Assembly (NCBI GenBank): GCA_023150835.1
Contig: JAKLKB010000088.1
Coordinates: 1 to 28,623, forward strand
Direction of reading: 5' to 3'
DNA: 28,623 nt
Source of the DNA: Myxococcota bacterium
GTDB taxonomy: Bacteria; Myxococcota_C; UBA6777
The notes beneath the pieces are model-generated. The model saw only the letters and a list, made by a program, of their open reading frames with translations. It was not told the origin of the DNA and made no database searches. Positions 6,961 to 28,496 of the stretch are shown here, one piece after another (position 1 is the first letter of the stretch; every line of letters starts with the position of its first letter). The position numbers and the translations under genes were made by a program.

Positions 6961-7106
6961 TACGAAATCTGCCCATGCCTGATACCCCCCGACCGATGAG
7001 CTTTACAGACGAAGTGTCCGAGTGTTCGCCCTCTGTGGCTGCCCGACCACTGGGCGTCTACAGCGGATCGCACCGGCCCTTCGATCACACTTTTCCGGGT
7101 ATCGTA
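6961..7106 (+). mobile_element. MITE-like repeat family M, degenerate copy abutting a stop codon
   Basis: The ends TACGAAATCTGCCC (left) and CCGGGTATCGTA (right) match the family, with 'CTCTGTGGCTGCCC' and 'GGGCGTCTAC' inside, but the interior is diverged and longer (146 bp). The right flank TTA (7107-7109) is, on the minus strand, the TAA stop codon of the DMT-like permease. The left flank is TTG. Confidence 0.65.
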
Positions 7107-8174
7107 TTACGCCTTTGCGGCCTTGCGTTTTTGATGCCGTTCCACCAACGGCGGGATGCTCAACACCAAGATCGCTGCGATGATCAGGCCCGCTCCTGCG
7201 AGCTTGTAAGGACTCGGTGCAGGCGCATTGAAAAACCACGTCAACAACCCGCTCGCCAACACACCCGCCAAGATACTCGACGACCGATTCACAGGCACAC
7301 AAAAGGTATTTTCTTGTTTGTTGAGCAAGATCAGTCCACCAAAGATCCCCGTCCCTTGGGAGAAAAGCCCTATCAAAAGCACACCTGCCAACACGATCCC
7401 TCCATCAAACAACGAGAAGCCTTGCGCCAACTCCCGCCCCAACGAACCCCATCCCAAAGCCGCCAACACCACCACAAACGCCATAATCGCCGACACACCG
7501 ACGATCTGCTCTTCTGCGAAAAATTGCCATTGTTTCGACGAATCATCCGACTTCGCCATCGAACTCATCAAGCGCAAGCGCACAAAATAAGCAGCTAGAT
7601 ACAGAGAGATATCGACCACCACCGCCGTGTTCAATGCCGTACTGCCACCGGGCTCCCAAAATGCCACCACCAGCGCCAAAAAGCTCAGAAACAAGCCCAC
7701 CCACGAAAACCACCGCGCTTTCCGACCGCTCAACATATCCACCGCAGGCGCGATCATCAACACGCCACCACGCATCAGCAGCATCGCAAACACGATGCTG
7801 ATCCCCTTGAATGTGTAAGCCAACGTCGTTGTCGCAATAATTGTTGCAGTACAAAGCCCCGACAAAAACGTCCCTGTTGACGGGCGTGGGATCGACAATG
7901 GGCCGATCTTGAATTGGTGGGCATAGCGCCAAAGCCCTGTCGCATACAAAAAGATCACCATCCCCACCGCCGAGACCACCAGACTCAACGGAAGCAAACG
8001 CGCCCCATCCATCGGGCCATTCGTCCCCCACCACAGCCCCCGCGAGATCGCTCGGGCGATCAAGCTGTACGGCACATAACACGCAAAATAACCAAAAGCG
8101 AACCACCAGATCGAAGCGTTCGCGATGCGATCCGCCATACTGCTTGGTACAGAACCTTTGCTTTCGTTTTGCAT
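7107..8174 (-). CDS. DMT/EamA-like multi-pass membrane transporter
   Basis: This 355-residue protein has about ten hydrophobic helices in two halves and a basic C-terminus (ERHQKRKAAKA). That layout resembles the drug/metabolite transporter (EamA) superfamily. I cannot name a substrate. The start at 8174 (MQNESKG) has GGATGGAG upstream; the inner ATG at 8138 (MADRIAN) is a possible alternative. The gene is divergent from glyoxalase I. Its TAA stop codon coincides with the flanking triplet of a family M repeat, so its transcript should run straight into that element. Confidence 0.7.
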   Translation of the reverse strand: MQNESKGSVPSSMADRIANASIWWFAFGYFACYVPYSLIARAISRGLWWGTNGPMDGARLLPLSLVVSAVGMVIFLYATGLWRYAHQFKIGPLSIPRPSTGTFLSGLCTATIIATTTLAYTFKGISIVFAMLLMRGGVLMIAPAVDMLSGRKARWFSWVGLFLSFLALVVAFWEPGGSTALNTAVVVDISLYLAAYFVRLRLMSSMAKSDDSSKQWQFFAEEQIVGVSAIMAFVVVLAALGWGSLGRELAQGFSLFDGGIVLAGVLLIGLFSQGTGIFGGLILLNKQENTFCVPVNRSSSILAGVLASGLLTWFFNAPAPSPYKLAGAGLIIAAILVLSIPPLVERHQKRKAAKA

Positions 8175-9352: not shown

Positions 9353-9372
9353 CCACCGCCTTTTTTCACACT

Positions 9373-9488
9373 CTCCCGAACCGCCACTTTTTTCTTCCAC
9401 ATCCCCGAACCACCGCTTTTTTCTTCCACATCCCCGAACCACCGCTTTTTTCTTCCATATCCCCGAACCACCGCTTTTTTCTTCCATC
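9373..9488. repeat. tandem array, four 29-bp units
   Basis: Four units of the form TCCCCGAACCACCGC-T6-CTTCCAYA follow head to tail, with the conserved G at 9378, 9407, 9436 and 9465 (exact 29-bp steps). The first unit is diverged and the last three are almost identical. A fifth, imperfect unit (CCCCCTAACCACCGCC-T6) reaches into the stop codon of the SRPBCC gene at about 9345-9370. The array fills the gap between two convergent genes. It has no spacers, so it is not a CRISPR. Confidence 0.9.
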
Positions 9489-9493
9489 CTCCC

Positions 9494-10909
9494 TCAAGCA
9501 GACTCTTTAGGTACGATCCATCGGCGCAAAAACACCAACAGCACAGGCGCGCTCAGCGTTGTCAAACCGATCACCAACCACATCATCGCTGCATTTCGCG
9601 GCCCTTCTTCGGGACAATACGCGGCCAACAAATACCCCGAAAAGATCCCTGCGGGTAGCTTTGCCAACACCCAAGGCAAGCCACTCATCGCCATATACGT
9701 GCTTTCTTCTCCTTTTGGCGCGATCGCTGCGGTGTATTCATATAGCTTCGGCCCCCACAGAGCCTCGCCGATCGACAACATCACATAAAACAAGATCACG
9801 GGTACATACACAGGGTGTATTCCCAAGGATTTCGCAATAGGCGCGTAGTGTTGTGCATCAATCGCCAAAAAAAACGGAGACAACGCAGAAATAAAACCTC
9901 CGACAATTAAAACAGAAAAAGTGCGAAATCTTGCTGTATACACAGCAATCAACGGAGGCAAGACCATCATCATAAAGCCGTTAATCGAATACGTCTTTCC
10001 GATAGCCGCCATCGGACCGATCTCTCGCAACATGAACTTCGGCATCGTGATATGTACATGCGTAAACAGTAGCTTGATGACAGACATCAACACGATTAAG
10101 ATCATAAACATCCAAAAAACCTTGTGCGACATCGACGCCCACAACAAACGCAGCGGATTCTTTCGCTCTTTCTGATCCCGCTGCGTCGCTTCCACATCTT
10201 CTTCTGCGTAGATGCCTTGGCGCACAAACAGCACGATCGCCAACAACCCCAACAACGTCGTCACAAAGCCAAACAAAAACACCAACTGATAGCTACTGAA
10301 CTCATACCCCCACAGCCGCAAGACGTAGGGCGTCACATCATGCCCGCCCTTCATCACGATCTTGCCCTTTGGTACGCCGCCCATGCTGCGCACGATCCAT
10401 GTTAGCTGATCCAACGCGATCCCCGCCACCAACGCCCCCACATTCATCAACGCATAAAAGATCGCAAAGGCCAGTCCTCGGCTGCGTGCTGTTGTGTACT
10501 GCTTGATCGCCGCCGACTTGATCGGGATCAGCAGAGGCATCCCAAGCGCCAACAACGGCAGCGAAAACAACACTGTCACGTAAAAAGACGGGGCCACACC
10601 AAACAAAAACCGCCCCACCACACACGCCAATAACCCCAACAACAACGAGCGCTTGATGCCGATCACATCGCACAACGCCCCCGCCAAAAAGATCAAGATC
10701 CCGTACCCCAGCGACCAATAACCAAATAGCTTCCCCGCCTCCACATCGTTTAAGCCCAAGTGTTGGCTGAAATACAACACCATCACCATCATCGACGTAA
10801 AATAAGCCAGCGACTCCATCAGCTTCGCGAAATAAACGACCCACAACTCTCGCACAGACGACTGCATCAACAGACGATACTCGTTCAAAAAATGAAGTAT
10901 TTTTTCCAT
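9494..10909 (-). CDS. MFS transporter
   Basis: This 471-residue protein has about 12 TM helices. The motif GALCDVIGIKR between TM2 and TM3 is the MFS motif A (GxxxDxxGxK/R). Long loops around 'VRSMGGVPKGKIVMKGGHDV' and a central charged loop (RQGIYAEEDVEATQRDQKER) split the N and C halves. The overall look recalls POT/peptide-type MFS carriers, but the substrate is not evident. I start it at the ATG at 10909 (MEKILHFLNEYR) with AAAGGAG upstream. The frame continues to 11020, but that part lies in a family A repeat. Confidence 0.85.
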   Translation of the reverse strand: MEKILHFLNEYRLLMQSSVRELWVVYFAKLMESLAYFTSMMVMVLYFSQHLGLNDVEAGKLFGYWSLGYGILIFLAGALCDVIGIKRSLLLGLLACVVGRFLFGVAPSFYVTVLFSLPLLALGMPLLIPIKSAAIKQYTTARSRGLAFAIFYALMNVGALVAGIALDQLTWIVRSMGGVPKGKIVMKGGHDVTPYVLRLWGYEFSSYQLVFLFGFVTTLLGLLAIVLFVRQGIYAEEDVEATQRDQKERKNPLRLLWASMSHKVFWMFMILIVLMSVIKLLFTHVHITMPKFMLREIGPMAAIGKTYSINGFMMMVLPPLIAVYTARFRTFSVLIVGGFISALSPFFLAIDAQHYAPIAKSLGIHPVYVPVILFYVMLSIGEALWGPKLYEYTAAIAPKGEESTYMAMSGLPWVLAKLPAGIFSGYLLAAYCPEEGPRNAAMMWLVIGLTTLSAPVLLVFLRRWIVPKESA

Positions 10910-10943: not shown

Positions 10944-11085
10944 TGACGCAGTTGGCCAAAAACCCCGCGTTCTCGATACTTCAAGCGGCACCGTCGCCCG
11001 AGTGAAAAACCTTCGATCACCCCGCCAAAACGGGGTCAAGGGGCGACAGTCCCTTGTGGGGTATGGGGCAACGCCCCACAAAAAC
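10944..11085 (+). repeat. dispersed repeat family A, copy 3
   Basis: This complete copy starts TGACGCAGTTGG and passes 'TTCAAGCGGCACCGTCG' and 'CGGGGTCAAGGGGCGACAG'. It closes with the hairpin TGGGGC-AAC-GCCCCA and CAAAAAC. It lies upstream of the minus-strand MFS gene. Just after it, GCCCCACAAAAACAT recurs at about 11120, so the right end has been partly duplicated. Confidence 0.78.
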
Positions 11086-13571: not shown

Positions 13572-13710
13572 TGACGCAGGTGACAAAAGATCCCGTGTTC
13601 GCGACATTTCAAACGACAGAGTCGCCTGCGTGGAGCACAGCGATCTGTTCGACGGTACGGGGTCAAGGGGCGGCAGTCTACGGCGGGGTGTGGGGTGACA
13701 CCCCAAACAC
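13572..13710 (+). repeat. dispersed repeat family A, copy 4
   Basis: It starts TGACGCAGGTGAC 8 bp after the LysR stop codon and passes 'CCCGTGTTCGCG' and 'CGGGGTCAAGGGGCGGCAG'. It ends with hairpin TGGGGTG-A-CACCCCA. The inner CAAGGG/CCCTTG hairpin is eroded here. It lies immediately beside a family M element. Confidence 0.75.
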
Positions 13711-13725
13711 AGAGCAACCACCTAG

Positions 13726-13838
13726 TACAAGCTCCGCCCGTTATGTGATTGTAGGAATGTAGGGGCAGACCCCTGTGTCTGCCCAATCATCGGGCGTCTA
13801 CGTACTCTCCTTTGTGTACACGTCACTCGGATATCGTA
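13726..13838 (+). mobile_element. MITE-like repeat family M, complete copy
   Basis: This 113-bp element has a left end TACAAGCTCCGCCC and a right end CGGATATCGTA. The central hairpin GGGCAGAC/GTCTGCCC differs from the 2057 and 25864 copies by a paired change. Its right half (GGGCGTCTACGTACTCTCC) is nearly identical to the copy at 28336-28448 read in reverse, which defines a subfamily. Flanks are TAG and TAA. Confidence 0.8.
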
Positions 13839-14793: not shown

Positions 14794-14797
14794 ATGG

Positions 14798-14940
14798 TTT
14801 TGTGGGGCGCGGCCCCATACCCCGCAAGGGGTTGCAAACCCCTTGACCCCGTGTTCGGCGAAAAGATCACGGCTTTTCAAACAAACGACACTCTCGCTTG
14901 GACAGGCGCGAACACGGGCTTTTTGGAGCCAACTGCGCAA
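14798..14940 (-). repeat. dispersed repeat family A, copy 5
   Basis: On the minus strand it begins TTGCGCAGTTGG and contains 'CCCGTGTTCGCG', 'TCGTTTGTTTGAAAA' and the strongest inner hairpin of the family (CAAGGGGTT-TGC-AACCCCTTG). The outer hairpin is TGGGGC-CGC-GCCCCA. It begins 4 bp after the SDR stop codon and ends about 20 bp before the next start. Confidence 0.78.
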
Positions 14941-20907: not shown

Positions 20908-23229
20908 ATGACGATCTCTCGACGTGAATTTCTCAAAAACCTCGCCATCGGGAGCGCGCTCACCGCAGCCTCCCAACTGATCCCGGGCGTCTCCTTTGCG
21001 TGGGAAAAACCCACCAGCCAACATGGCAGCGATATCACATGGAAAAAAGCCCCCTGCCGCTTTTGTGGTACAGGATGCGGCCTCTTGATCGGTGTCAGCG
21101 AAGGGCGTGCCGTCGCTGTCAAAGGCGATCCACAAAGCGCCGTCAACAAAGGGCTTTTGTGCGTCAAAGGCTACCACTCCATCCAAGCCTTGTACGGAGA
21201 AGATCGCCTGAAAAAGGCGATGATCCGCAAAAATGGCCAGATGGTCGAAGTTCCGATCAAAGAAGCGCTCGACCTGATCGCACAAAAGATCAAAGAAACC
21301 ATCCAAAGCCACGGAAAAGACGCCGTTTCGATGTACGGCTCGGGCCAGTGGACCATCCCTGACGGATACGCCGCCTCCAAACTGATGAAAGGCTGCATCG
21401 GCACCAACAACCTCGAAGCCAACGCTCGCCTTTGCATGGCCAGCGCAGTCACCGGCTTTATGACCACCTTCGGTCTCGACGAACCCATGGGCTGTTACGA
21501 AGACATGGATCATGCCGACACTTTCTTCTTGTGGGGCAACAATATGTCCGAGATGCACCCCGTCCTTTTCTCACGCATCCTCGAACGAAAACGTACCCAC
21601 CCGCGCACCTTGATCATCGACTTCGCAACCCGCAGCACCCGCACCAGCGTCGCTGCCGATCGCTCGATCCTCTTTCGCCCTCAATCCGACCTCGCTGTCG
21701 CCAACGCCATCTGCTACGAACTCTTTCGCACGCAGCGTATCGATCTCTCCTTCTTGCAGAAACATTGTAGCTTCCGCAAAGGTAAAACCCAGATCGGATA
21801 CGGACTTCAAGACAAATTCGCCTTCCAAGATACTCCTGAGATCACCAACCTCGACGAATACAAAAAATTCCTCGAAGACTACACTCCCGAAAAAGTCGAA
21901 AAGATCTCGGGTGTTTCAGCCGAAGATATCCGCTACATGGCATCGCTCTACGGCGATCCAACCCGTAACGTCGTCTCCTACTGGTGCATGGGGATGAACC
22001 AACACACGCGGGGAACTTGGATCAATAACCTCGTTTACAACATCCATCTTCTTGTCGGAAAGATCTCTCGTCCGGGCAACGGTCCTTTCTCTTTGACAGG
22101 TCAGCCCAGTGCTTGCGGAACTGTGCGTGAAGTGGGAACCCTCACCCACAAACTCCCCAAAGGCATGGTCATGGACCCCAAAGCCCGAAAGTTCGCCTCC
22201 GATATCTGGAAAGTCCCTTATAGCCGCATCCCCGCCAAGCCCACTTACGACACCGTCGAGATGTTTCGCGCCCTTGATCGCGGTGATATCCGCTTCATGT
22301 GGATCCAAACCACCAATCCCATGGTCACCATGCCCAACCTCCGACGTTACCGCGATGCCACCAAAAAACAAGGCCGCTTTATCGTCGTCTCCGAGATCTA
22401 TCCCACCCCCACCACCGCCATCGCTGACGTGATCCTCCCTTCGGCCATGTGGATCGAGCGCGAAGGGATGTTCGGAAACTCCGAGCGCCGCACACAACAC
22501 TGGGAAAAGATGGTCAACCCACCCGGGGACGCCATGAGCGACACATGGCAGATCATCGAAGTGGCCCGCCGGTTGGGCTTTACCAAAGAATTCCCTTGGA
22601 GTGAAGACAAACATATCGAACACATCTGGAACGAGTATACCCGCTTCCATGACAATCCAGCCCATCGCATGGCCGATTATGAAACCCTCAAACGCGAGTC
22701 CGGCGTGATCTGGCCCTATGTCAACGGAAGATCCACCCAATGGCGCTACAACACCCAACTCGACCCCGCCACCAAACGCCGCAACGGAGCCGTCGACTTC
22801 TACGGAAAACCCGAAGGCAAAGCGTGGATCTGGCTCCGCCCCTACGAGGCCGCCCCCGAAGAACCCAGCAAAGACTACCCTTTCTGGCTCAATACAGGCC
22901 GCGTCCTTGAACACTGGCACACAGGCTCCATGACCCGCCGTATCCCCACCCTACACCAAGCCGTCCCCGCCTCTTACGTCGAAATCCATCCGCTCGACGC
23001 AAAACGCCTGAATATCCGCCATGGCGACAAAGTCAAGCTCACCAGTCCACGCGGTAGCATCCTCATCAACGCCTCGCTGAACCAACGCGCTTGTCCTCCT
23101 CTCGGCCAAGTCTTCGTCCCGTTTTTTGATGAAAATTATCTGATCAACGAACTGACCCTCGACGCTTATTGCCCGATCTCTCGGCAACCAGACTACAAAA
23201 AATGCGCGGTCCGCGTGGAGAGAGCATGA
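20908..23229 (+). CDS. napA: periplasmic nitrate reductase, catalytic subunit
   Basis: The protein has 773 residues, with TAGGAG before the ATG. The Tat signal has SRREFLK at 4-10 and a hydrophobic core (LAIGSALTAA). The [4Fe-4S] ligands are C50, C53, C57 and C85 (C-x2-C-x3-C-x27-C). C176 in ARLCMASAVTGF is the molybdenum ligand of Nap-type enzymes. 'GSGQWTIPDGYAA', 'FNQHTRG'-like MNQHTRGTW, 'GPFSLTGQPSACG' and 'STGRVLEHWHTGSMTRR'-like NTGRVLEHWHTGSMTRR are NapA hallmarks. It reduces nitrate to nitrite with a bis-MGD cofactor. It is about 50 residues shorter than E. coli NapA, the loss lying around residues 555-600. The stop overlaps the next start (ATGA). Confidence 0.97.
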   Translation: MTISRREFLKNLAIGSALTAASQLIPGVSFAWEKPTSQHGSDITWKKAPCRFCGTGCGLLIGVSEGRAVAVKGDPQSAVNKGLLCVKGYHSIQALYGEDRLKKAMIRKNGQMVEVPIKEALDLIAQKIKETIQSHGKDAVSMYGSGQWTIPDGYAASKLMKGCIGTNNLEANARLCMASAVTGFMTTFGLDEPMGCYEDMDHADTFFLWGNNMSEMHPVLFSRILERKRTHPRTLIIDFATRSTRTSVAADRSILFRPQSDLAVANAICYELFRTQRIDLSFLQKHCSFRKGKTQIGYGLQDKFAFQDTPEITNLDEYKKFLEDYTPEKVEKISGVSAEDIRYMASLYGDPTRNVVSYWCMGMNQHTRGTWINNLVYNIHLLVGKISRPGNGPFSLTGQPSACGTVREVGTLTHKLPKGMVMDPKARKFASDIWKVPYSRIPAKPTYDTVEMFRALDRGDIRFMWIQTTNPMVTMPNLRRYRDATKKQGRFIVVSEIYPTPTTAIADVILPSAMWIEREGMFGNSERRTQHWEKMVNPPGDAMSDTWQIIEVARRLGFTKEFPWSEDKHIEHIWNEYTRFHDNPAHRMADYETLKRESGVIWPYVNGRSTQWRYNTQLDPATKRRNGAVDFYGKPEGKAWIWLRPYEAAPEEPSKDYPFWLNTGRVLEHWHTGSMTRRIPTLHQAVPASYVEIHPLDAKRLNIRHGDKVKLTSPRGSILINASLNQRACPPLGQVFVPFFDENYLINELTLDAYCPISRQPDYKKCAVRVERA

Positions 23230-24068
23230 GTACGCAAAACACCCAACATACCGACGCGCCCAACCCAAGCGCGACCCCTTCCCCGACCGATACACCCAAC
23301 CTAAGCACAACCTCTTCTCTTTCGGGCGAAGGATTTACCGTTAGCTACGGCTTTATCGCTATCGCTTCGGGAATGATGCTGATGGGCGCTTGGGTGCTTG
23401 TCACCCTCGTGCTTCAAGGCATCGACCCCCAAGATCCTCACAAAAGCCACAACCCTCCCAAAGCTGCGCCCGTCCCACATCTCGCGGCTGCTTTGCCCGC
23501 AACTCCCACACTCACAAACGCCCTACTCTCCGCAACCCCCGGTTCTTCGGTGCGTTCCCTTCAACGCTTCTACAAACAACGTGCTTATTCGGGTGCCCCA
23601 CCACATATCCCTCACGATATCCTCGAACACAACGGCCAGATCGATGCTTGCCTGTCCTGCCACAGCCAAGGCGGTTATGTCCCCAAGTACAACGCCTTTG
23701 CACCCATCACCCCCCACCCCACCTACACAAACTGCGTCCAATGCCACGTCCCACAGCGCACACAAAGCACCTTCCGCCCCTCCGCATGGAAAGCCTCTCC
23801 TCGCCCCCAACTCCGCCGCACCGCACTCGCGGGAAGCCCTCCACCCATCCCTCACGATCTCCATATGCGCACCGATTGCAACGCCTGTCATGCCGGACCC
23901 GCCGCCGTCAAAGAGATCCGCGTCCCACACCCCGAGCGCAGCAACTGTCTCCAATGCCACGTCCCCCGCAAACAAGTCCCTCCCTTTCGCAGCCTTTCTC
24001 CGCTCCACCAACGCCTCGAAAAAAACGCTCCTCCACCCACCCCCTCACCCCAAAGGAAGAGACCATGA
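23226..24068 (+). CDS. membrane-anchored tetraheme cytochrome made of two NapB-like modules
   Basis: This 280-residue protein starts by ATGA overlap with napA (GGAGAG upstream). A Ser/Thr/Pro-rich cytoplasmic N-terminus is followed by one TM helix (about 38-63), then four CXXCH sites at 142-146, 170-174, 218-222 and 241-245. Module one (122-178) reads SGAPPHIPH...CLSCH...HPTYTNCVQCHVP. Module two (202-248) reads AGSPPPIPH...CNACH...PHPERSNCLQCHVP. Each is the signature of the diheme NapB, which is normally soluble and single. The protein should deliver electrons to NapA. A duplicated and tethered NapB is unusual. It overlaps the next gene by ATGA. Confidence 0.88.
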   Translation: MSTQNTQHTDAPNPSATPSPTDTPNLSTTSSLSGEGFTVSYGFIAIASGMMLMGAWVLVTLVLQGIDPQDPHKSHNPPKAAPVPHLAAALPATPTLTNALLSATPGSSVRSLQRFYKQRAYSGAPPHIPHDILEHNGQIDACLSCHSQGGYVPKYNAFAPITPHPTYTNCVQCHVPQRTQSTFRPSAWKASPRPQLRRTALAGSPPPIPHDLHMRTDCNACHAGPAAVKEIRVPHPERSNCLQCHVPRKQVPPFRSLSPLHQRLEKNAPPPTPSPQRKRP

Positions 24069-24723: not shown

Positions 24724-25863
24724 ATGTCTCGCACCAAGGCATTTCTCTTCGGACAAACAGCGGAACACCAACCGCCCGAAGAATATACCTACCCACTGCT
24801 TCCACCGCCCCAATCCACCCAAGCGGCCTCCGCATCGCCCTCTTCGACTTCTGCATGCGCCGCCCCAAGCTCCTGTGGCTGTCAGCCACCCAAGCCCACC
24901 GCAGTCGATACTCCATACAAAGCCTTGCTCAAGGCCGATCTCCAAGAGGCCGAACCTGCCGATGGGATCTCACGACGCGAGATGCTTCAACACCTTCTGA
25001 TCGGTGTCGCGGCTACGGCAGCCGTCGCTTCTGGGTGCAGTGAAAATCTTGAAAAAGGCTCGCTGAATTGGGAAGAGTATTTTAAGAAAAATTATCGCGT
25101 CATGACCGCCCAAGAACGCACCGATACCGTCCAGCGGCTCGAACGACTCGCGCAGATGCGCAACGAAAAAAAACCCTCGATCCAAACCAAAAACGCGATC
25201 CCGGGTGTCCTTTACGGCTACGCCTTCAATATCTCCAAATGCAAAGGTTACATGGATTGCGTCGAAGCCTGCATCAAAGAAAACAACCTCGACCGAAAGT
25301 CGGGGATGCAATACATCCGTATGTTCGAGATCGAAAAAGGAAAGTTTAACGTCAACCTCGATCATGCCGATGGCACCTACCACCACGAAGTCCCCGCAGC
25401 AGGCCATGTCTACATGGGTACGCAGTGTTTTCAATGCGAAAATCCCCCTTGCGTCGCCGTTTGCCCCGTAGGTGCGACGTGGAAAGAAGACGATGGTATC
25501 GTCGTGATCGACTACGACTGGTGCATCGGCTGTCGTTACTGCCAATCTGCCTGCCCCTACTGGGCAAGGCGCTTCAATTGGCATGAACCTGTCGTCCCCA
25601 ACACCGAAGTCAATCCCATCCAACACTACCTCGGAAACCGCAAGCGTAAAAAAGGTGTCATGGAAAAATGCACCTTTTGCATCCAACGCTCCCGCGACGG
25701 CAAGCTCCCCGCGTGCGCAGAGGCCTGTCCTACAGGCGCACGTGTCTTCGGAAACCTTCTTGATCCAAATAGCGAGATCCGTTATGTCCTCGCAAACAAA
25801 AAAGTCTTTCGACTCAAAGAAGATCTCGGTACCGAACCCAAGTTCTGGTACTTTATGGACTAA
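24724..25863 (+). CDS. Tat-exported four-cluster ferredoxin subunit (NrfC/PsrB-like) with N-terminal extension
   Basis: The protein has 379 residues, with AAGGAG 8 bp before the ATG. Residues 1-80 are an unusual Pro/Ser-rich extension with C45, C51 and C53. The Tat motif SRREML (83-88) and a hydrophobic stretch ending ASGC (Cys105) follow, so the mature protein may be a Tat lipoprotein. Cluster ligands are C173/C179/C183 (CKGYMDCVEAC), 235-247 (CFQCENPPCVAVCP), 267-277 (CIGCRYCQSAC) and 316-335 (CTFC...CAEACP), the four-cubane pattern of NrfC/PsrB/HybA. It passes electrons from NrfD-type quinol oxidase subunits. Its stop codon TAA is the flank of a family M repeat. Confidence 0.9.
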   Translation: MSRTKAFLFGQTAEHQPPEEYTYPLLPPPQSTQAASASPSSTSACAAPSSCGCQPPKPTAVDTPYKALLKADLQEAEPADGISRREMLQHLLIGVAATAAVASGCSENLEKGSLNWEEYFKKNYRVMTAQERTDTVQRLERLAQMRNEKKPSIQTKNAIPGVLYGYAFNISKCKGYMDCVEACIKENNLDRKSGMQYIRMFEIEKGKFNVNLDHADGTYHHEVPAAGHVYMGTQCFQCENPPCVAVCPVGATWKEDDGIVVIDYDWCIGCRYCQSACPYWARRFNWHEPVVPNTEVNPIQHYLGNRKRKKGVMEKCTFCIQRSRDGKLPACAEACPTGARVFGNLLDPNSEIRYVLANKKVFRLKEDLGTEPKFWYFMD

Positions 25864-25975
25864 TACGATATCCGTGTGATGTGTGATCGTAAGATATCGC
25901 GTAGACGCTCGATTATAGGGCAGCCACAGAGGGCTGCCCCTACGTTTTGCGATCACACGATGGGCGGATCTCGTA
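25864..25975 (-). mobile_element. MITE-like repeat family M, complete copy inside the nap operon
   Basis: This 112-bp element has ends TACGATATCCG and (reverse complement) TACGAGATCCG, which pair over about 35-40 bp with mismatches. The central hairpin is GGGCAGCC-ACAGAG-GGCTGCCC. TAA lies on both sides (25861-25863 and 25976-25978). The left TAA is the stop codon of the ferredoxin gene. The element fills most of the 130-bp gap before the NrfD gene. Confidence 0.85.
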
Positions 25976-25993
25976 TAACCGCAGGAGAGCGCG

Positions 25994-27229
25994 ATGACGC
26001 CCCTTCAAGACAGGACTCTATTTCGCTTTTTTCGCGACGTGCTGCGGCACTCCGTCACAGGCAGTCTGCGCTACCACCTCTGGATGGGCAGTCTGACCTT
26101 TTTGATGGCGCTTGGCACCTACGCTTATCTGATCCAACTCAACAAAGGTCTCGGTGTCACGGGCATGTCCGATTATGTAAGTTGGGGGCTTTACATCTCC
26201 AACTTTACCTTCCTTGTCGGCATCGCCGCAGCCTCGGTCATGTTGGTTTTGCCGGCCTACATCCTCCATGACGTAGACTTCTCCAAAGCAGTCTTGATCG
26301 GCGAAGGACTCGCTGTCACCGCACTTTTGATGTGCCTTGCCTTTGTCACCGTCGATATGGGCGGACCTCACCGCCTCTGGCACATGATCCCCAAGATCGG
26401 CTACTTCAACTGGCCCCAATCCATGCTCACATGGGACGTGATCGTCCTCAACGGTTATCTCGCACTCAACCTCTTGATCCCCTTCTATATTTTATTCTCT
26501 CATTATCGTGGGCGCTCCCCCAAAAAAGCCCTCTACGTCCCTTTTATCATGTTTTCCGTCTTCTGGGCTGTCAGTATCCACCTCGCCACCGCCTTTTTGT
26601 ACGCAGGCCTCCCAAGCAGACCCTACTGGAACAACGCACTACTCGGGCCACGTTTTCTTGCTTCCGCTTTTGCCGGTGGCCCCGCCCTGATGATCTTGAT
26701 CCTCCACTTTATCAAGCAAAACACCGACTTCCCGATCGCCGAAGAAACCATCCGTAAACTCGCCCTGATCGTCACCGTCGCCGCACAGATCAACCTTGTC
26801 ATGCTTGGCTCTGAACTCTTCAAAGAATTCTACGCCCCCACCCACCACAGCCAAAGCGCGACCTACCTTTTCTTCGGACTCAAGGGTCACAAACCTCTTG
26901 TCCCGATCATCTGGACCGCCATCTTGCTCAATGTCTTTGCGACGTTGCTCTTTACCTTCCATCGCACCCGCAACAACAAGCCGATCCTGCTCGTCTCTTG
27001 CACCCTGCTCTTTGCCGCGATCTATCTCGAAAAAGGTATGGGACTCGTCGTTCCCGGCTTTATCCCTTCGCCGCTTGGCGAGATCGTGGATTACTTCCCC
27101 ACATGGATCGAGATCGCCGTCACCATCGGCATCTGGGCGCTCGGCTTCTTTGTCTTTACACTCCTCGTCAAAGCCGCCATCGCCATCGAAAAAGAATACG
27201 AAACCCACCACCGCTCCGAGCCACACTAA
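25994..27229 (+). CDS. nrfD: NrfD/HybB-type quinol-interacting membrane subunit
   Basis: This 411-residue protein has about ten TM helices. 'YVSWGLYISNFTFLVGIAAASVML' early and 'VDMGGPHRLWHMIPK' (about 116-130) are characteristic of the NrfD/PsrC/DsrP/HybB family; the region after it, 'WPQSMLTWDVIVLNGYLALNL', is also conserved. It exchanges quinol with its ferredoxin partner at the periplasmic face. It follows that partner here, with a repeat between them, and AGGAGAG precedes the ATG. As no NapC or NapGH is seen in the window, this is the likely quinol input for NapA. The gene symbol is family-level. Confidence 0.9.
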   Translation: MTPLQDRTLFRFFRDVLRHSVTGSLRYHLWMGSLTFLMALGTYAYLIQLNKGLGVTGMSDYVSWGLYISNFTFLVGIAAASVMLVLPAYILHDVDFSKAVLIGEGLAVTALLMCLAFVTVDMGGPHRLWHMIPKIGYFNWPQSMLTWDVIVLNGYLALNLLIPFYILFSHYRGRSPKKALYVPFIMFSVFWAVSIHLATAFLYAGLPSRPYWNNALLGPRFLASAFAGGPALMILILHFIKQNTDFPIAEETIRKLALIVTVAAQINLVMLGSELFKEFYAPTHHSQSATYLFFGLKGHKPLVPIIWTAILLNVFATLLFTFHRTRNNKPILLVSCTLLFAAIYLEKGMGLVVPGFIPSPLGEIVDYFPTWIEIAVTIGIWALGFFVFTLLVKAAIAIEKEYETHHRSEPH

Positions 27230-27364
27230 GTTCTTTGCTTCCTTTTGCACCTTTTTTCTTGTGCTGTTCTCTCCACCAAAAAGTCGATGGAGAGGAGGCG
27301 TGACGCACGCCCACCACACAAAGGTACAACCCCTTCACCCGCTCGCTCAGCACAGGAGGCTATC

Positions 27365-27793
27365 ATGGAACAAGGCCGATACAATATCGCCGCAGGACTC
27401 GCAACGCTCGGTTTTTTCATGGCATACGGATTTTTCTTAATCTATATGCGCGACTTTCATCCCAACAAAGCACAGTGGATTGCAGAATATGCTGTCGGAA
27501 AACATTTCGAATCCCGCCTCGCCCACGTCCACGGAAACTTGCTTGCTTTGCTCAACATCCTTCTTGGCTTTATCTTTCTTAAACTACAAGGCGGCGAAAA
27601 ACCACGTAAGATCGCCGCATGGATGGGCCTGATCGGGCTGCTTATGCCGCTCGGTATCCTTGGCGAAGTCTACTTCAATATGTCTCCGATCTTCGTTCTT
27701 GTCGGAGCCGCGAGTATGTTGGCCTCTGTTGTCTTCACCGCTTGGCTTTCCTACCGCTTTTGGCCCTCCGCTCAAAACGCCTCGTCCCCTTGA
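27365..27793 (+). CDS. small four-TM membrane protein of the nap operon
   Basis: This 142-residue protein starts at the ATG at 27365 with AGGAGG 6 bp upstream; the frame runs back to 27245 without a start signal. TM helices lie at about 8-28, 55-73, 83-101 and 108-130. Four histidines (H32, H47, H54, H56) lie before or at the start of the second helix, and could bind a b-type heme or quinone. I do not recognise the family. Its position between NrfD and a cytochrome suggests a role in the electron-transfer complex. The 135-bp gap before it holds nothing I can name. Confidence 0.75.
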   Translation: MEQGRYNIAAGLATLGFFMAYGFFLIYMRDFHPNKAQWIAEYAVGKHFESRLAHVHGNLLALLNILLGFIFLKLQGGEKPRKIAAWMGLIGLLMPLGILGEVYFNMSPIFVLVGAASMLASVVFTAWLSYRFWPSAQNASSP

Positions 27794-27858
27794 CATCTCG
27801 CGCCCTTTTTGGCTACACAGTCCCCTCCCTCTTCAACCCTCATCTGCTCGGGTGCTTC

Positions 27859-28335
27859 ATGCGACAAAAAACAACTTATGCTCTATTGATCGGCTTATTG
27901 CTCTCTGCGTTCGGTGCTGTCGCCAGTTTCGCAACGCCCACCACGCGGCCCACTCCCAAACCCACCCCGTCGGCTGCTCACAACAAACCCGAACTCACTT
28001 TCAAAAGCGTGATGATCCTCCTCCAACAACAAATGAACCTTGCTGCGGCGGGGATCTACCAAGAAGATTACGCTCTTATCCAACGCGCAGGATACGCCAT
28101 CGCCAAACACCCCGCCCCTTCGCTCGCAGAACGCAAACGCCTTGTGCGTGTCATCACCCCCATCCGCGAACAATACCGTACCGTTGGCCGAATCGTCCAC
28201 GGAAGCGCCGAAGACATGGCCCGTGCCGCCGAAAAACGACAGATGCCCGCTGTCTTAACCGCCTACCAACAACTCCTCGGGGGATGCGTTGCTTGCCACC
28301 AATTAACCCGCGCCTCCTTCCAAGCCACCCCCTAA
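27859..28335 (+). CDS. monoheme c-type cytochrome (c556/c'-like)
   Basis: The protein has 158 residues. A signal peptide (YALLIGLLLSAFGAVASFA) is followed by a Pro/Thr-rich spacer (27-45) and a helical domain. A single CVACH (143-147) sits near the C-terminus, as in the four-helix-bundle cytochromes c' and c556. No Met/His distal ligand is obvious, though M51 or M59 in the first helix would be in the usual c556 place. It is probably a periplasmic electron carrier or NO-binding protein for the nap chain. The ribosome site is weak (GGGTG). The stop codon TAA is the flank of a family M repeat. Confidence 0.8.
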   Translation: MRQKTTYALLIGLLLSAFGAVASFATPTTRPTPKPTPSAAHNKPELTFKSVMILLQQQMNLAAAGIYQEDYALIQRAGYAIAKHPAPSLAERKRLVRVITPIREQYRTVGRIVHGSAEDMARAAEKRQMPAVLTAYQQLLGGCVACHQLTRASFQATP

Positions 28336-28448
28336 TACGATATCCAAGCAATGTGTACACAAAGGAGAGTACGTAGACGCCCTATTCTTGGGCAGACACA
28401 GGGGTCTGCCCCTACATCCTTACGATGACACAACGGGCGTATCTCGTA
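28336..28448 (-). mobile_element. MITE-like repeat family M, complete copy after the last nap gene
   Basis: This 113-bp element has a left end TACGATATCC and a right end GGGCGTATCTCGTA. The hairpin GGGCAGAC/GTCTGCCC is shared with the copy at 13726-13838, to which the left half is also nearly identical. The left flank TAA (28333-28335) is the stop codon of the cytochrome gene. The right flank is TCA. Confidence 0.82.
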
Positions 28449-28496
28449 TCACACCCCCGCCGTCAAACCCCCTCCAAGATCCTTTTGCTGTGATTT

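Follow-up and report, generated by a model that had tools for sequence, protein, structure and literature searches.

Element M, a family of non-coding MITEs of about 113 bp in a myxococcotal draft genome, duplicates a TNA trinucleotide within a defined target context, is nearly absent from inside genes and inserts into native stop codons. About a quarter of its full-length copies (47 of 182, through 49 ends) directly adjoin the stop codon of a gene. The preferred reading, with a probability of about 0.86, is that M is a non-autonomous MITE with a TNA target, and that losses from coding DNA together with a preference for TWA at gene 3' ends yield the spike at stop codons. On this reading a single genome shows that a trinucleotide target rule alone suffices to place a transposon on native stops, the ingredients being purged gene bodies, a TAA that is itself a TNA in each TAA-ended gene, and a duplication that restores the stop. 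Repeats at stop codons are accordingly not to be taken as functional 3' elements, and a similar spike, open to checking in genomes already available, is predicted for other TNA- or TWA-targeting elements (IS1031 group, Harbinger-type).

Copies in the window and in the genome

The window, the whole stretch of 28,623 nt that was analyzed, corresponds to contig C22 in a draft genome of 7.56 Mb. Five M copies lie where the earlier note had placed them, all of 112-113 bp save one of 146 bp. On the minus strand are the full-length copy 2057-2169 (113 bp), with TTA at 2054-2056 and 2170-2172; the longer and older copy 6961-7106 (146 bp), common to the source and the sister species at the same place; and the full-length copy 13726-13838, with TTA at its left end and CTA at its right. 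The second flanking triplet is no longer intact at 6961 and 13726. The plus strand carries two further full-length copies, 25864-25975 (112 bp) and 28336-28448 (113 bp). Partial copies, right-end halves of families D4 and D5, occupy 147-330, close to the contig start.

As reported earlier, three copies abut gene stops, each in exact contact through the TACGATAY end of M. The left end of 6961-7106 abuts the minus-strand TAA at 7107-7109 of a 355-aa gene (7107-8174). Copy 25864-25975 follows the plus-strand TAA at 25861-25863 of a 4Fe-4S ferredoxin-domain gene (24724-25863); this stop is at once the left half of the target duplication, whose right TAA lies at 25976-25978 (plus strand). Copy 28336-28448 follows the plus-strand TAA at 28333-28335, both the stop of a putative cytochrome gene ending at 28335 and the left target triplet; the right triplet at 28449-28451 (plus strand) is TCA, most likely a drifted TAA copy. 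The identical triplets described for 2057-2169 (TTA/TTA) and 25864-25975 (TAA/TAA) are present, and 28336 has TAA/TCA. Among the gene identities proposed before, the ferredoxin is borne out by a Pfam match to Fer4_11; Pfam gave no match for the putative cytochrome gene whose end is 28335 or for the putative DMT permease gene of 355 aa (7107-8174).

Other repeats occur in the window. A second dispersed intergenic family with core GGGGTCAAGGGGCGACAGTCCCTTGCGGGGTGTGGGG is found at 368-506, 10944-11082 and 13572-13709, with inverted copies near 1900-2019 and 14794-14917, and tandem repeats have a 41-bp unit at the contig end (28494-28623) and a 29-bp unit at 9361-9505. An Rfam search of the 28,623-nt window found nothing matching.

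The ends of M are TACGATATCC and TACGARATCCGCCC, and its consensus, built from 33 copies, is TACGATATCCGAGTGATGTGTGATCGAAGGATAGTGCGTAGACGCCCGATTnTTGGGCAGCCACAGGGGGCTGCCCCTACGTnTTTACGATCACACAACGGGCGGATCTCGTA. The terminal inverted repeats (TACGATATCCG / CGGATYTCGTA) are imperfect past about 10 bp. M has the features of a MITE: it is short, without coding capacity, present in many copies with defined ends and terminal inverted repeats, and accompanied by a TNA target-site duplication and by empty sites in the sister species KLAP109. The exact pattern of TNA followed by the left end, TNATACGATATCC, occurs 269 times in the source genome and not once for the reversed control. A profile recovered 182 full-length copies, mostly of 112-113 bp, from 140 stretches (933 kb). 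Randomly paired copies are 76% alike, and 14 copies each match another at 98% or above; some movement of M is therefore recent. The family is dense in the source genome and present in KLAP109, and was undetected in three other genomes of the source genome's family. In the comparison set the phylum comprises five genomes of one family, with near relatives labelled Myxococcota or Myxococcales.

Thirteen back-to-back pairs of M copies have one triplet in common, and all 13 are head-to-tail (e.g. L091:11868/11984, L064:2283/2399, L147:2283/2399). Similarity within about half of these pairs is no higher than between random copies. Inverted neighbours were possibly lost as long palindromes. The core hairpin of M is also tandemly arrayed in the source genome, at C20:3330-3575, C21:14960-15123, C62:16418-16521 and C69:19727-19854, with periods of 110, 69, 39 and 51 bp, respectively.

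Target site and enrichment at stop codons

The triplet outside the left end of the 182 copies is TAA (50), TCA (41), TTA (41), TGA (36) or another (14). At the right end, which played no part in copy selection, the triplet is TNA in 149/182 copies, and the same triplet stands on both sides in 99 of the 139 copies with two-sided TNA. M thus targets TNA and duplicates all 3 bp of it. The target of TAA/TTA proposed in the earlier note proved too narrow, since all four middle bases are used, and its 3-bp duplication stands. A TA-only target of the IS630/Tc1 type was rejected: the middle base is duplicated as well, and empty sites hold only TNA. The triplet sits in a weakly palindromic context, approximately GN[not T]-TNA-[not A]NC, with G three bases before and C three bases after the triplet, T shunned just before it and A just after; the ends of M itself (TACG) are similar to this context. 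Insertions of M fall on TWA in preference to TSA and tend to lie at gene 3' ends, genes themselves being avoided.

Position relative to genes was assessed in a census of about 200 copies obtained by two pattern searches blind to stop codons, on contigs up to about C193. The census covered 140 stretches (933 kb) with about 70% of the exact left ends, and controls were drawn from the same stretches. Genes were called with a simple codon-usage ORF caller of our own (655 genes; stops TAA 278, TGA 236, TAG 81). Ends with a gene stop at distance exactly 0 number 49 (33 left, 16 right), with 0-4 at any other single distance. The constant orientation described before, with the same end always at the gene, holds for 3/3 copies in the window and fails genome-wide at this left-to-right ratio of 33:16 (two-sided p=0.02). 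At the 49 abutting ends the stops are TAA in 45, TGA in four and TAG in none, and none of the 81 TAG stops, a codon that unlike the other two does not fit TNA, is occupied.

Among copies bearing a duplication, six occur at about 22,300 coding TNA sites versus 55 at about 6,060 intergenic ones. The comparison of stop-abutting copies with intergenic expectation, proposed in the earlier note, gave an excess at TAA stops: these received 21 insertions versus 5.1 expected from the whole set of intergenic sites after weighting for context and TWA preference, and TGA stops two versus 1.8 with the same weighting. Insertions per weighted site (×10^-4) amount to 12.3 at TAA stops, 7.1 at convergent intergenic sites no more than 60 bp from a 3' end and 2 to 3 further away, 2.9 at divergent intergenic sites and 0.15 in coding DNA. 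In a gene-end-centred count requiring at least 100 bp free downstream, 20/173 TAA stops were occupied versus 12/176 TWA triplets 1-59 bp downstream (p=0.14; about 1.7-1.8-fold), and 1/149 TGA stops versus 18/478 matched TSA triplets, which is marginally lower (p=0.057). The preference for TWA over TSA partly explains the difference between TGA and TAA. Crowded downstream genes were rejected as its cause, the difference persisting with at least 100 bp free.

The spike thus mainly reflects the density of good targets, one per TAA-ended gene at position 0. It is sharp because every TAA-ended gene has a TWA at that position and other downstream positions have one only rarely. The enrichment of M at stop codons requires no special targeting. 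A transposase supplied in trans would cut a 3-bp staggered TNA target and so duplicate the triplet; most insertions into coding DNA would be lost through selection, and gene 3' ends would be the safest of the TNA sites left, with TWA favoured. The gene-side TAA copy would still serve as stop after insertion, leaving the protein unchanged, and the mRNA would acquire a predicted hairpin past the stop. Against this simple model stand the marginal shortfall at TGA stops, which it does not predict, and the twofold predominance of left ends at stops.

Active attraction of the transposition machinery to gene 3' ends or TAA stops, through terminators, termination complexes or supercoiling, would account for the roughly fourfold excess at TAA stops over the all-intergenic expectation and for the raised rate at convergent 3'-proximal sites. 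It is unlikely, however, as the excess shrinks to the non-significant 1.7-1.8-fold against nearby downstream TWA triplets, TAA stops do not differ significantly from convergent 3'-proximal sites (p=0.21), and TGA stops show no excess. Similarly doubtful, and somewhat more so, is the proposal that transposase or selection distinguishes TAA stops from all other TNA sites, TGA stops included, as a dedicated cost-free site; if true, such recognition would let M multiply without cost.

Retention of stop-codon copies by positive selection, with the hairpin serving as a terminator or mRNA-stabilizing 3' end, is again improbable, and a shade less credible than either. The hairpin predicted for the consensus is very stable (-52.6 kcal/mol, left to right), a T-run follows the core hairpin in the left-to-right direction only, and the gene-facing end is more often the left one. 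However, conservation is no higher among copies abutting stops than among the rest (p=0.33), the T-run is found in 15/23 stop-abutting versus 58/115 other copies, target duplications decay equally (27/49 versus 72/135), and matched downstream triplets are occupied nearly as often. A terminator role was rejected, stop-abutting and other copies being alike in conservation and T-run. Neutral tolerance is better supported than a functional 3' end, the 33:16 skew being the sole hint of more.

Corresponding sites in the sister species

The comparison genome, 'MAG: Myxococcota bacterium isolate KLAP109', is a draft from the same genus, with about 93% DNA identity to the window over 8.3 kb. Comparable gene ends in KLAP109 have the stop at the same codon in 26 of 27 cases (18 TAA, 4 TGA, 4 TAG), most of them without M. 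Clean examples are the sites matching L168, L104, L160, L164, L106, L138 and L040; one reads CAAAAAATAA|CCTGCGCG in the sister species and CAAAAAATAA-[M]-TAACCTGCGCG where occupied. The counterpart of window copy 28336-28448 is likewise empty and has a TAA stop. The 24 comparable occupied TAA stops correspond to TAA (17), TAG (4) or TGA (3) in KLAP109, so that 7/24 were swapped, which matches the rate at unoccupied TAA stops (11 kept, 4 swapped, i.e. 4/15; 1 other excluded). Judged from these alignments, the stop codon at M insertions is the gene's own and not supplied by M, because sister genes stop at the same codon and swaps occur at the background rate. That M enters a native stop and leaves the gene intact, as the earlier note had suggested, is upheld by L168, L104, L164, L040 and others, and the empty sites, whose comparison in relatives it had also proposed, contain TNA and keep the native stop.

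The note's alternative, that TAA belongs to M and gives a new stop to genes that M truncates, is very improbable and largely refuted: the convergent pairs at L045 and L077, with TAA left, TTA right and both genes stopping at M, and L116, with TAA on the gene side but TGA in both its opposite triplet and the sister gene, would fit it, but any TNA (TAA, TTA, TGA or TCA) flanks M, and the sister-gene stops and background swap rate given above contradict it.

At the stop abutted by window copy 25864-25975, KLAP109 also carries M, but as another, oppositely oriented copy (L171:5868-5982), as though this one stop had been hit twice independently. L172, which is more distant, is free of M at the corresponding stop, and its final residues are the same. 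In the two convergent gene pairs (L045:2406-2510 and L077:2398-2510; sister loci L285 and L281) both stops abut M; the sister stops are 6 bp apart, and 9 bp, the spacer and one triplet, are missing in both.

Comparison with known systems

The IS1031 group of the IS5 family has a 5'-TNA-3' target and a 3-bp repeat (PMC12016507), and M shares this 3-bp TNA target duplication. M differs in carrying no transposase, and no transposon found in the genome shares its ends TACGATATCC; the 17-bp ends of ISLrh, a member of the IS1031 group, GAACCTGTCTAGTATCT, are unlike those of M (PMC12016507). No PF01609 match in the source genome, an incomplete draft, has M ends around the transposase, nor does any PF13586 or PF13359 match in the source genome and four relatives, likewise incomplete drafts, have them. 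The IS5-type transposition proposed in the earlier note agrees in target type with the IS1031 group, and no cognate transposase or autonomous IS5-type partner with the same ends was found. M appears to behave like an IS1031-type (IS5 family) derivative MITE, a likeness of target type only, with no membership claimed.

An IS5-type transposase remnant (L255:1463-1877; source contig C238, about 23145-23559) has ends GAGGGTGTTTGCGAAAAAGTG and flanks TTA/TTA. It occupies the triplet adjoining an M copy; IS5-type elements were therefore once active here. Although the sole nearby candidate, it was rejected as the autonomous partner of M, its ends (GAGGGTGTTTGCG...) being different.

Eukaryotic PIF/Harbinger (PHIS) MITEs have 3-bp TWA or TNA duplications and IS5-related transposases (PMC4482050); their duplication is similar to that of M, the likeness being one of target type alone; PIF/Harbinger elements are eukaryotic. 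Among bacterial MITEs, RUP, Correia/NEMIS and RU-1/ERIC are examples of short, non-coding, multicopy elements with terminal inverted repeats, mostly intergenic, hairpin-forming and target-duplicating (PMC2229807), and M shares all these features. Most MITEs of the RUP/Correia/ERIC type have TA dinucleotide ends or targets, whereas M has a TNA duplication. No direct report of MITEs at native stop codons was found in the papers searched. The M family is new, the kind of element is already known, and the effect of its target is instructive: M differs from the bacterial MITEs named above in often landing on native stop codons.
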